64,000 nt of DNA. It comes from Candidatus Omnitrophota bacterium. Lineage in GTDB: Bacteria > Hinthialibacterota > Hinthialibacteria > Hinthialibacterales > JAKPRU01. A model generated the notes under the pieces. The model had not been told where the DNA came from. It ran no database searches and worked only from the letters and a program-made list of their open reading frames with translations. Below, piece by piece: positions 10,980 to 15,186 of the stretch (positions within the stretch are counted from its first letter, which is position 1; every line of letters begins with the position of its first letter). A program made the position numbers and the translations under genes. The stretch lies in assembly GCA_029570205.1 (NCBI GenBank), contig JAKQSI010000058.1:1-64000 (forward strand), read 5' to 3'.

Positions 10980-12449
10980 TCACAACACCCGCAATGACCC
11001 CGGCAAGGCCACTCGACGACGGGTACTGAATGTTCGCGGTCTGCACGCGCCTTCCCCTGTCGGCCCGGCAATGGTCATTGCCGAATACCCTTCGGCGTCG
11101 GTTCCGAGCGCGGCCCCACATGGCCCGTTTGCCACAAACAGATTCACCCGAATCCGCTTCGCAAAATCCGTGATCCGGTCGATCCGGGCGGTATGGATAA
11201 TCGCCGTGTGACGGAAGCTGTGCTCCGCCCGAATCGCCGCTTCCACCGCCGCGTTGTAATCCGAAACCCGAACAATCGCCAGGATCGGCATCAAGAGTTC
11301 CTCCTGCACAAACGGGTGTTCCTCCACCGTTTCGCAGATCACCAGATCGATGTTTGCGGGTACGCTGAGTCCGATTGCATTCAACAAAACTTGCGGACTC
11401 TTCCCGACATAATCCCGATTGGGATGCCCGTCCTCTGTGATAAGAATCTTCGTGAGCGAATCCACGTGCTGACGGTTAATCAGATACGCACCGGCGTGCT
11501 GCATCTCCAGAATCAACCGGTCGGCCACAGACTGGACCACAAAACATTCCTTCTCGCAGATACACGGCATGTTGTTGTCGAAACTGGCCCCCGCAACGAT
11601 GTCTCTGGCCGCCTTCGGCAAATCGGCTGTCTCATCGACAATCACCGGCGGATTGCCCGGTCCGGCGGCGATCGCTCGTTTGCCGCTGGTCATCGCGGCT
11701 TTCACCACGCTTGTCCCACCGGTCGCCACCAGCAGGTTCACTTTCGGGTGAGTCATCAGAATCTTCGCCGTTCGAAGGGTCGGCTCCGCAATACTGGTCA
11801 GCAGGTTTGGCGGTCCGCCCGCGCGGACAATAGCGCGATTCAACACTCGGATCGCTTCCAGCGTCGATTGAATCGCCGCCGGGTGGGGACCAAACACCAC
11901 GCTGTTCCCCGCCGAGATCATGGCGATCCCGTGGTTGATAATCGTAGATGTCGGGTTCGTGCATGGAGTAAGGGACCCGATCACCCCGAATGGGGCGTAG
12001 TCCACAAAGGTCATGCCGTGGTCCCCCGTAAAACATTCCGGTTCAAGGTCTTCCGGACCGGGGGTCCTATTCGTGGCCAGATCGTTCTTGGCCTGTTTGT
12101 GATCCGCACGACCCATCCCGGTATCGGCCACAGCCAACTCCGCAAGTCGCCTGCTTTCGGCAAGGGCCGTCTGACGAATGGCGGCGACTATCGTCTTACG
12201 CATATCCATCCCCATTGCTGTCAGCTGGACCTGGGCCGCAACCGAGGCATTGATTGCATCTTCGATATCGCCAAAAATCCCGTCGTTCCCGCCGGAAGGG
12301 ACACCTGCGGTAACCGGAGAAGATGCAAGAGGCATCGCGGGAGACCTCTGTGGAACAGGCGCACCGGCCACCTTCGCCACCGTTCCGCCCCCTGCCTGAA
12401 ACTCTGCCAAAACCTGCCGGACTATTTCGGATATTCGTGCTTCGTCCAT
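10980..12449 (-). CDS. CoA-acylating aldehyde dehydrogenase, microcompartment type (PduP/EutE-like)
   Basis: A 489-residue enzyme converting an aldehyde plus CoA and NAD+ to acyl-CoA inside a microcompartment. The first ~18 residues (MDEARISEIVRQVLAEF) form a short amphipathic helix of the encapsulation-peptide type, joined to the body by a ~40-residue Ala/Pro/Ser/Gly linker. The dehydrogenase domain starts near residue 60. NNMPCICEKE carries the catalytic Cys near residue 296, and TPCTNP and GPGNPP are family motifs. The start at 12449 was preferred over an upstream in-frame start because it places the targeting helix first and has AAGGGG upstream. The substrate cannot be told from the sequence. 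Confidence 0.92.
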   Translation of the reverse strand: MDEARISEIVRQVLAEFQAGGGTVAKVAGAPVPQRSPAMPLASSPVTAGVPSGGNDGIFGDIEDAINASVAAQVQLTAMGMDMRKTIVAAIRQTALAESRRLAELAVADTGMGRADHKQAKNDLATNRTPGPEDLEPECFTGDHGMTFVDYAPFGVIGSLTPCTNPTSTIINHGIAMISAGNSVVFGPHPAAIQSTLEAIRVLNRAIVRAGGPPNLLTSIAEPTLRTAKILMTHPKVNLLVATGGTSVVKAAMTSGKRAIAAGPGNPPVIVDETADLPKAARDIVAGASFDNNMPCICEKECFVVQSVADRLILEMQHAGAYLINRQHVDSLTKILITEDGHPNRDYVGKSPQVLLNAIGLSVPANIDLVICETVEEHPFVQEELLMPILAIVRVSDYNAAVEAAIRAEHSFRHTAIIHTARIDRITDFAKRIRVNLFVANGPCGAALGTDAEGYSAMTIAGPTGEGACRPRTFSTRRRVALPGSLRVL

Positions 12450-12544
12450 GTTCGATCGCCCCTTCGCTGATCGGAGTGTAAGATTGATAACTCGGAAAAC
12501 TGCCTGAACTGTCTCAAGATACCAGAATGTACCTGTAACCTTCT

Positions 12545-12561
12545 CCCCCAAAGATTGGGGG
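12545..12561. repeat. GC-rich hairpin in the flavoprotein/aldehyde dehydrogenase gap
   Basis: CCCCCAA and TTGGGGG pair over 7 bases around AGA. It lies in the 218-base gap 12450-12667 between two microcompartment genes on the same strand and belongs to the class of short C-run/G-run hairpins scattered through this window. It could attenuate or divide the operon transcript. Nothing else was recognised in the gap. Confidence 0.4.
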
Positions 12562-12667
12562 ACACAGAGGGGGGTAAATTGAATAAACCTGCAACCCCCG
12601 CTCTAATCCCCAACCGCCCTGGACACATCCCTCCTCCTCTTTTCTTCCCTTTTTAATTCTTAATTCT

Positions 12668-13525
12668 TCATTCTTTTCCCCCCACAATCTCAATCTCAAT
12701 TCCCCTCTCCGCCAGCAACTCACGCGCTGTTGGTGTCACCAACCCGCCCCGCTCCACACGAATCACCGGACCGGGAAGGTTCTTCGCGTCCTCCGCCGTA
12801 ATCAAATGGCCGATCACTTCCCCTGAGTTGGGAATCGCAATCTTCGCGGTGTGGACCACACGCGACAGCATTTCCTTCATGGGAACCACGGCTATCCCCA
12901 TTCGCTCCAGATCGGCGCGATATCCGGCGATTTTGTCCGCCATTCCAGGAAGGTTGTTTCCATGTGTTGTTTGTGAATTGGGAAGCAGCCGTTCTCGCGC
13001 CGCCAGTACCGGCACACGATAAAACAACGCTGAAAAAACAATCTCAATCAAATCCTCATCCGCGATCCCCAGTGCGACTTTCGCCGCCAGGGTCCGATCC
13101 AGACTGGGAAGAATCACTGCCCGGCAGGATTTGATTTTCTCGTTCCTGGTTCCCAACTCGGAAAGCGCGGTTATCACTCGAACTCCCCGCTTCTCCAACG
13201 CTTTCCGGTCCACGGAATGCCCGATAAAGGATTCCACCGAAATCCCATCTTGAGTCCATCGACCAAGAGCCGCAAAGAATTCGCGCTCCTCCTCAATCTC
13301 ACCGTGAATCAGGCACAGCACCTTCTGTGTTGCCGCCGGAACAGGCTGTTGTACGAATGGATCGCCAACTGACTGCGGAGGCGAGACCCGATTCCCCCCA
13401 TCCTGCACAGTTCCGCCACTGACCGCCGGAGAGGGACAGGCACAGGCCGGAGCGGATGGCCCGCTCTCGGCCAGGTACTTTCGAACCTCCTCGGTAATCA
13501 CCTCTGTAAGACGGTCGATATCCAT
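12668..13525 (-). CDS. Microcompartment-associated flavoprotein (PF02441-like), with encapsulation-type N-terminus
   Basis: A 285-residue protein starting with an amphipathic helix, MDIDRLTEVITEEVRKYLAE, like those of its two neighbours. A Cys/Pro-rich linker (about residues 20-65, with PACACPSP) follows, then a Rossmann-like domain resembling flavin-binding phosphopantothenoylcysteine-decarboxylase-type proteins (LPSLDRTLAAKVALGIADEDL, RERLLPNSQTTHGNN). The C-terminus ends with VTPTARELLAERGIEIEIV. Its start lies two bases after the pduL stop, so the genes are coupled. Family membership rests on pattern only. A role in NAD/flavin redox balance inside the compartment is inference. Confidence 0.65.
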   Translation of the reverse strand: MDIDRLTEVITEEVRKYLAESGPSAPACACPSPAVSGGTVQDGGNRVSPPQSVGDPFVQQPVPAATQKVLCLIHGEIEEEREFFAALGRWTQDGISVESFIGHSVDRKALEKRGVRVITALSELGTRNEKIKSCRAVILPSLDRTLAAKVALGIADEDLIEIVFSALFYRVPVLAARERLLPNSQTTHGNNLPGMADKIAGYRADLERMGIAVVPMKEMLSRVVHTAKIAIPNSGEVIGHLITAEDAKNLPGPVIRVERGGLVTPTARELLAERGIEIEIVGGKE

Positions 13526-13527
13526 CT

Positions 13528-14199
13528 TCAGTCCAGTATCTCCGCAAAATCTCCCGTGGACACGCTGCACGCATTTGCATCATCGGTATCCACATGCATT
13601 TCCGCCCGGAAACTGTCCCGCACACGGACCTGGACACCTTCCAGGATTGTGCTCTTGTGGACATTCGCAATTCGAACCCGAACCGTATCGTTGTCCTTCA
13701 GTCCCCATCGTTGGGCGTCGGAGGTGTGGATGTGTATATGACGGTTGGCGCGGATCACTCCCCGTTTCAGGTGAATAACTCCGACCGGCCCCACCACAAT
13801 GACCCCGCCGGTTCCCTCATGATTACCGGAAGGGCGAACCGGGGGATCGATCCCCAGAAAAATCGCATCCGTGCGGGATACCTCCACCTGGCTTTGGTCC
13901 CGTGTGGGACCAAGAACCCGAACCTGGTCCATGCACCGCATTCGTGGTCCAACCAGGGTCACCACCGATGTGCTGGCGTATTCATCCTTTTGATAGAGCT
14001 CATTCCGTGGTTCCAGGTGATACCCTTGCCCAAACAGAATCTCCACATGCTCCTGGCACAGGTGAAGGTGACGAACCGAGACCCCAATCCGCACCGCCTT
14101 CCGATTCGGATCGGTTGGCGGTTCTTCTCGGACCAGACGGTCCATGACACGCCGAACAATCTCCTCTATCGCGCGGGGATCGACTTCATCCACCATCAT
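13528..14199 (-). CDS. pduL: Phosphate propanoyltransferase (PduL-type phosphotransacylase)
   Basis: A 223-residue microcompartment phosphotransacylase that converts acyl-CoA plus phosphate to acyl-phosphate and frees CoA for the aldehyde dehydrogenase. The two PduL beta-barrel halves show the metal-binding His sets: SVRHLHL (His44 and His46) and NRHIHIH (His154, His156 and His158). The N-terminal ~25 residues (DPRAIEEIVRRVMDRLVREE) form an amphipathic helix of the encapsulation type, which marks this as a compartment-targeted PduL. It is followed after two bases by the flavoprotein gene and preceded by 342 bases to the shell gene. Confidence 0.93.
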   Translation of the reverse strand: MMVDEVDPRAIEEIVRRVMDRLVREEPPTDPNRKAVRIGVSVRHLHLCQEHVEILFGQGYHLEPRNELYQKDEYASTSVVTLVGPRMRCMDQVRVLGPTRDQSQVEVSRTDAIFLGIDPPVRPSGNHEGTGGVIVVGPVGVIHLKRGVIRANRHIHIHTSDAQRWGLKDNDTVRVRIANVHKSTILEGVQVRVRDSFRAEMHVDTDDANACSVSTGDFAEILD

Positions 14200-14541
14200 C
14201 TATTCCCTGCCAAAAATCCCTGAATCTACCGTTCCTTAACCAATGAATCCTTCAAGAGCCTTCTCGCCCACTGCTTGCCCCACTCCGCCTTCTTCCCCCT
14301 CTCCCTCCGGGAGAGGGTTGGGGTGAGGTTCTTTTAGTTAGTCCCTCGACTCATGCGCATCAGTCCCATTGGCCCCAATTCGACCCCTGCTCTTCTCCCT
14401 TTCCCCCCGGGAAAAGTCGCGGTGAAGGTCCAAACTCACGCCCAAAACAACACACCGGCAACCCAGCGGCCGCCGTTTGTCAGTTCGGGCGTCCCCAAGT
14501 CACCGGTGATCCGACTCGTTCTTCCGCAAAGGTCCGTCTTG
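14200..14541. other. 342-base gap between shell gene and pduL, with one hairpin
   Basis: No credible gene was found here, and in particular no pentameric shell gene. A perfect hairpin CCCTCTCCC-TCC-GGGAGAGGG lies at 14297-14317, followed by TTGGGGTGAGG. This is one of a dispersed family in the window. The rest is unremarkable C-rich sequence. Confidence 0.5.
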
Positions 14542-14823
14542 TCAGCCCTGTTTCGGCAGAATATTCTCGAGTTCGGAGTGCGGACGCGGAATGACATGCA
14601 CGGAAACAACCTCTCCGACTTTGCGTGCCGCTGCCGCGCCGGCATCCGTGGCCGCTTTAACCGCGCCGACATCGCCGCGTACCATGACGGTCACAAATCC
14701 GCCCCCGACTTTTTCCTTGCCGATCAATGTGACACTGGCGGCTTTTACCATCGCGTCCGCGGCTTCGATCGAGCCGACCAGACCGCGAGTTTCTATGAGG
14801 CCCAAAGCCTTGCCTTCCACCAT
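14542..14823 (-). CDS. Bacterial microcompartment hexameric shell protein (BMC-H)
   Basis: A 93-residue single-BMC-domain protein of the PduA/EutM/CsoS1 type, whose hexamers tile the shell facets. The N-terminal strand [18 protein letters not shown] and the pore-side segment [21 protein letters not shown] are classical. The C-terminus with [16 protein letters not shown] is also typical. The start was placed at MVEGKALG, which has GAGGAGGAAACAG just upstream; a longer in-frame reading would add 31 unrelated residues. It is the first gene of the minus-strand microcompartment operon. It is the only shell protein in the window, and no BMC-P vertex or BMC-T protein was found. Confidence 0.95.
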
Positions 14824-14954: not shown

Positions 14955-15186
14955 GGAGAATGGTATACCGGCGGTCTTTCCCCGATCGCTCCCCATCCGA
15001 ACCCCGTCGGGTCGGTGTGAGGAGAACGGTACAAAATGTCCTTTATATGATAATCTATTTCATTATGGCAAGGTCCGATGCCTGCACGAGAACCCTCATC
15101 CCAACCCCCTCCCGGAGGGAGAGGGGAAAGAAGCGGTCTTGAAGAAGGCGCAGGGGAAACTCATGGATTGCCCCCGAATGGGTGGC

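Follow-up and report, generated by a model that had tools for sequence, protein, structure and literature searches.

A cluster of four genes in the window (the whole stretch of 64,000 nucleotides analysed here) encodes a single hexameric shell protein together with an aldehyde-processing core, which raises the question of whether so small a set could build a microcompartment of its own. On a sequence-only reading, the cluster could be either a satellite completed elsewhere in the genome or a minimal compartment type. Our analysis favors the former: with a probability of about 0.85, these four genes form a satellite-like locus that is the metabolic core cassette of a scattered metabolosome of FRAG type, and not a minimal new type. 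The cassette comprises the following features.

10980-12449, minus strand: CoA-acylating aldehyde dehydrogenase (AldDH) of the PduP/EutE subfamily (NCBIfam NF011927, 611 bits against a cut-off of 403)
12668-13525, minus strand: flavoprotein-like protein in the PduM slot (PF02441, TIGR02536 and PduM matches of its relatives, and predicted fold)
13528-14199, minus strand: PduL-type phosphotransacylase (PF06130, 228.8 bits; NCBIfam NF011652, phosphate propanoyltransferase, above its cut-off)
14297-14317, no strand: palindromic repeat CCCTCTCCC...GGGAGAGGG between BMC-H and PduL (pattern scan of the window)
14542-14823, minus strand: BMC-H hexameric shell protein of 93 aa, PduA/PduJ/EutM-like (PF00936, 99.9 bits)

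The genes are transcribed in the order BMC-H, PduL, flavoprotein-like gene, AldDH, and all four stand where the sequence-only reading had placed them, the flavoprotein being recognized through its relatives and predicted fold and the others by family matches. An AGGAGG resembling a Shine-Dalgarno sequence lies shortly 5' of the ATG of BMC-H, whose pore loop reads KVGGG and whose nearest solved chains include PduA and EutM. PduL begins with an N-terminal helix of the type usual for encapsulation peptides. The AldDH carries its catalytic Cys within NNMPC and starts with a helix and linker; its nearest solved chains are 5jfl and 4c3s, labeled simply 'aldehyde dehydrogenase' in the table consulted. 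With 2 bp between PduL and the flavoprotein-like gene, and gaps of about 340 and 220 bp at the other two junctions, the four genes probably form one operon, although this is unproven. The repeat at 14297-14317, either a terminator or a dispersed intergenic repeat, looks like the latter. As had been noticed before, alaS and then accA follow 3' of the cassette, and G+C-rich repeats resembling the one at 14297-14317 are also seen near 15117 and 10900.

Comparison with a genome of the same genus (G001) gives dN/dS values of 0.02 for BMC-H, 0.08 for PduL, 0.11 for the flavoprotein-like gene and 0.085 for the AldDH. Purifying selection of this strength indicates that the four genes are maintained. 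The N-terminal helices were also compared with shuffled sequences by hydrophobic moment, and amphipathicity was significant for PduL (p 0.011) and the flavoprotein-like protein (p 0.021) and marginal for the AldDH (p 0.10). Several relatives and E. coli PduM itself gave no significant result. Since the hydrophobic-moment test reaches significance in part of the sequences only, and not even in E. coli PduM, it is weak; the predicted helix and disordered linker of the flavoprotein-like protein are better evidence.

Inspection of the remaining genome locates the rest of the shell. The assembly is a MAG-like draft of 4.39 Mb in 131 contigs, 93% complete and 4% contaminated. Profile searches across it, as the sequence-only reading had proposed, recovered three BMC-P genes and one class II aldolase on contigs other than that of the cassette. 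In all, the genome holds four PF00936 domains (two BMC-H and one tandem BMC-T) and three PF03319 genes, distributed over five contigs, together with exactly one PduL. The second BMC-H lies on contig C120, the tandem BMC-T on C16, two BMC-P genes on C57 and one on C19. No PF03319 match occurs anywhere on the cassette contig, which extends the earlier statement that the cluster has no EutN-like vertex gene. The other members of a complete shell set, namely a second BMC-H, a BMC-T and three BMC-P, are thus encoded elsewhere in the genome to which the window belongs.

Judged by reading the fetched stretches, the genes around these outlying shell genes appear to be ordinary ones. We take the neighbors of the second BMC-H to be rpoA-like and dnaE-like genes and that of BMC-T to be a rimO-like gene. 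Directly 3' of the BMC-P pair on C57 (L010:12033-17742) lie what are presumably a Cas9-like protein of 1001 aa, a Cas1-like protein and a repeat array. Directly 5' of the first BMC-P on C57 is a gene for an ArgA-like GNAT N-acetyltransferase (L010:10518-11054; NF005840, 187.9 bits, above cut-off), and a gene of this kind holds the same place in L120-L124 (6/6 genomes compared).

To describe how stable this arrangement is, the genome of the window was set beside two genomes of the same genus and six of the same order (families f1 and f2, n=9). Each of the nine contains four PF00936 domains, one PduL, one flavoprotein-like gene and two to four PF03319 matches. BMC-H, PduL and the flavoprotein-like gene are adjacent in all nine, and the AldDH adjoins them wherever the contig continues, so that the full order is seen in 8/9 genomes; in the ninth (G006) the contig ends after the third gene. 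The window and the f2 genomes have different genes flanking the cassette, and the four genes alone form the common part. That is to say, the grouping and order of the four genes are retained across two families while their neighbors change. The BMC-P triplet stands in tandem on another contig in all five f2 genomes fetched, and in the genome of the window it is split 2+1. Those relatives of the cassette that bear a name are for the most part labeled Candidatus Omnitrophota in the NCBI taxonomy.

Among other genomes examined, three of family f4 in the same class contain no shell genes, PduL or flavoprotein-like gene, and no AldDH above the level of a distant paralogue. A tandem BMC-T is the sole shell gene of G011. 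In G009, BMC-H, BMC-T and the BMC-P triplet are present and a partial AldDH lies at the edge of a contig; neither PduL nor the flavoprotein-like gene was found there. A genome from another phylum, G025, consists of a single contig of 3.29 Mb, along which are spread BMC-T at 91 kb, BMC-H beside a flavoprotein-like gene at 586 kb, a second BMC-H at 875 kb, BMC-P genes at 906, 1162 and 2850 kb and the AldDH at 1143 kb. Because shell genes are dispersed in this uninterrupted sequence as well, the scattering is not an effect of assembly.

These observations decide between the two options with which the cluster was introduced. A minimal compartment would consist of one BMC-H with PduL, the flavoprotein and AldDH, assembled into a sheet, a tube or an open structure without vertices, and a cassette contig lacking BMC-P is what such a compartment would show. 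The three BMC-P genes found elsewhere, accompanied by a second BMC-H and a BMC-T, cause this reading to fail, and every relative with the cassette likewise has BMC-P genes; of the earlier alternatives the satellite completed elsewhere therefore stands, and the minimal compartment, set against the genome of the window and eight relatives, is highly improbable. Equally improbable is that the cassette is what remains, in decay, of a pdu/GRM-type locus whose organelle has been lost. BMC-P and a signature enzyme are indeed missing from the places between the genes that they occupy in standard loci, but the catalytic motifs are intact, the whole set is kept in all nine f1/f2 genomes, and dN/dS of 0.02-0.11 rules out a pseudogene. 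The missing vertex gene is accordingly a matter of genome organization and not of new shell architecture.

For the scattered metabolosome, we infer from the genes that the products of the separate loci would assemble into one icosahedral shell. The AldDH would convert aldehyde, CoA and NAD+ to acyl-CoA and NADH, and PduL would turn acyl-CoA into acyl-phosphate, both enzymes being recruited into the shell by their N-terminal encapsulation helices. The flavoprotein-like protein, with an N-terminal helix of its own, would join core to shell.

The source of the aldehyde is less firmly indicated. The sequence-only reading had found no signature enzyme, which holds for the cluster; for the genome as a whole a candidate exists, unlinked and on another contig. 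Exactly one class II aldolase (PF00596) is present in each of the nine f1/f2 genomes and in G025, and that of the window's genome abuts an L-rhamnose isomerase gene (TIGR02635, 570 bits against a cut-off of 531). Such pairing of aldolase and rhamnose isomerase is that of fucose and rhamnose catabolism. The foremost candidate substrate of the organelle would then be L-lactaldehyde, released by the aldolase from rhamnulose- or fuculose-type phosphates, an assignment that we offer tentatively and at somewhat less than even odds. The link is weak: relatives lacking BMCs have the aldolase too, not every BMC-bearing genome has the isomerase, and an encapsulation-type C-terminal helix was not seen on the aldolase. 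The C-terminal helix that the aldolase does have was rejected as an encapsulation signal, being present in BMC-lacking relatives too and not amphipathic. Rhamnose isomerase was not found in G004, G006 or G025 and is represented in G008 by a distant paralogue alone, so it was dismissed as a constant partner.

Propionaldehyde could take the place of lactaldehyde if lactaldehyde were first converted to 1,2-propanediol and then acted upon by a B12-dependent or glycyl-radical dehydratase. Colinearity of the cassette with PDU and GRM3-like loci is consistent with this route, as are the glycyl radical enzymes of three f2 relatives, but a PFL-like glycyl radical enzyme (PF02901) is absent from most relatives and from the window's genome, where it was discarded as signature enzyme, and we regard the route as unlikely. 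No B12-dependent diol dehydratase was recognized in the cluster or its near flanks. The glycyl radical enzymes of the same-order relatives (G005:C17, G006:C114 and G008:C44) score about 765 bits, and the G008 copy reads through one TAA.

The third gene of the cassette was examined for its relation to PduM. Alignment and an AlphaFold model of medium confidence (mean pLDDT 76, pTM 0.58) predict the following parts of the flavoprotein-like protein.

Residues 3-20: N-terminal helix
Residues 22-63: disordered linker
Residues about 66-228: Rossmann-like flavoprotein domain
Residues about 237-281: C-terminal domain

Pfam gives no match for the window protein itself, and its assignment as a flavoprotein derives from relatives and predicted fold. 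PF02441 (Flavoprotein) matches 10 of 15 family members, at best with 2.5e-12, and TIGR02536 matches are also found among them. Foldseek likens the predicted structure to UbiX, PPC decarboxylase and the cysteine decarboxylase TvaF (6jls, TM-score 0.74 by target). A search of PDB sequences with the family profile returned just weak matches to glutamate dehydrogenase.

The position of the gene is that of PduM, since the cassette order, with BMC-P missing, equals the standard pdu/GRM3 order. The E. coli pdu locus (L178) runs pduJ-K-L-M-N-O-P. Members of the flavoprotein-like family lie beside a glycyl radical enzyme in Rhodobacter capsulatus (L085) and rhizobia (Rhizobium, L087) and beside a B12 diol dehydratase in Bacillota, and the standard loci of these bacteria read BMC-H, PduL, (EutJ), flavoprotein, BMC-P, (PduO), AldDH. 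Sequence similarity to PduM is confined to the C-terminal part. PduM is represented by the models NF011957 and TIGR04493; against TIGR04493 the window protein scores 12.2 bits, below the cut-off of 50, and family members reach 5e-4 to 1e-2 with PduM models, all in the C-terminal part and all short of curated cut-offs. In hhalign the last 45 residues align with the C-terminus of E. coli PduM (E 2e-4 for one comparison, probability 46%), and removal of the N-terminal part raises the probability to 55%. The same segment weakly matches the N-terminus of EutQ and is for this reason not specific to PduM; it may be a small domain shared by the flavoprotein-like protein, PduM and EutQ. Homology of the flavoprotein-like protein and PduM over their whole length is not proven by these alignments.

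PduM has been reported to link the enzyme core to the shell (PMC9132943); it is also described as bearing a signal sequence at its N-terminus and as lacking known relatives beyond Pdu (PMC12108088, 2025). By analogy, the flavoprotein-like protein might be a PduM-like core-to-shell linker, possibly one that retains a flavin-binding fold; we put this forward tentatively. A wider version, on which we are more doubtful, would make it the full-length PduM-slot protein of many metabolosomes (B12-PDU, GRM3-like, those of Poribacteria and the window lineage, and that of G025, where the gene lies beside BMC-H), with enterobacterial PduM a reduced descendant that has lost the flavoprotein core and the protein described here a linker in a scattered lactaldehyde metabolosome. 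A role as active flavoenzyme or electron shuttle instead of assembly linker has a comparable claim, well short of even. Axen et al. 2014 (PMC4207490) suggested such a role for the flavoprotein of GRM3 loci, and the decarboxylase-type fold and the PF02441 matches of family members agree with it, whereas the window protein and many relatives have an altered PASANT-like motif (e.g. PSLDRT and PSISRT, replacing N-T), and the PduM slot and the C-terminal segment in common with PduM point toward the linker. A limited literature search returned no mention of a flavoprotein with an encapsulation peptide, and for PduM with flavoprotein unrelated papers alone. Through the connection to the PduM slot, an assembly factor that is poorly understood would become open to testing in a larger family with a recognizable structure.

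Among described systems, FRAG BMCs distribute their shell genes over as many as six sites and have a BMC-P triplet and, occasionally, an AldDH nearby (Sutter et al. 2021, PMC8217296). The system of the window resembles them in its several genome positions (five contigs, and the length of the single 3.29 Mb contig in G025), its three BMC-P genes, an AldDH near a shell gene, as in some FRAG members, the want of an obvious signature enzyme and its occurrence in candidate phyla. By scatter and BMC-P triplet it matches FRAG at the level of the class that comprises the subtypes FRAG1-7. Satellite-like loci with PduL or AldDH were described from Poribacteria and BRC1 (Axen et al. 2014, PMC4207490), and scattered shell genes from Poribacteria (Kamke et al. 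2014, PMC3909097). There as here, PF00936 and PF03319 genes occupy separate regions, some with PduL or AldDH, and the cassette accordingly presents one PF00936 gene with PduL and AldDH while the other shell loci lie elsewhere. Poribacterial contigs L083, L084 and L090 repeat the order BMC-H, PduL, flavoprotein; unlike the cassette, L090 shows no AldDH in the flank examined, nor BMC-P.

The sugar-linked organelles compare less closely. Like the PVM and PVM-like systems (the fucose-rhamnose organelle of Planctomycetes and Verrucomicrobia), the window's genome combines an AldDH core with a class II aldolase, but here the aldolase lies on another contig and the shell genes do not share one locus; with the genome's sole class II aldolase unlinked to the cassette, PVM membership was excluded. 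In 2015 a fucose/rhamnose BMC, with no dehydratase identified, was put forward for Latescibacteria (PMC4454575).

Turning to gene order, no BMC-P lies immediately outside the cluster and no close relative carries it within a standard locus; in distant bacteria the same genes stand in the same order inside standard pdu and GRM3-like loci. The order BMC-H, PduL, PduM or flavoprotein, AldDH is common to the cassette and to PDU and GRM3-like loci, including B12-PDU or GRE loci L085-L093, whereas BMC-P, PduO or EutJ, and the dehydratase are missing from the cassette, which reads as the pdu/GRM3 order minus the BMC-P step. This conserved order connects the pdu/GRM3 layout with scattered metabolosomes, for which it suggests an origin by fission or from an ancestral core. 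The window adds one more lineage, with relatives labeled Candidatus Omnitrophota at NCBI, to those with a scattered organelle. In contrast to FRAG loci as described, PduL and a PduM-slot flavoprotein here join BMC-H and AldDH as a conserved cassette, and it is this pdu-like order, together with the connection of PduM to a family of flavoprotein fold, that may be new.
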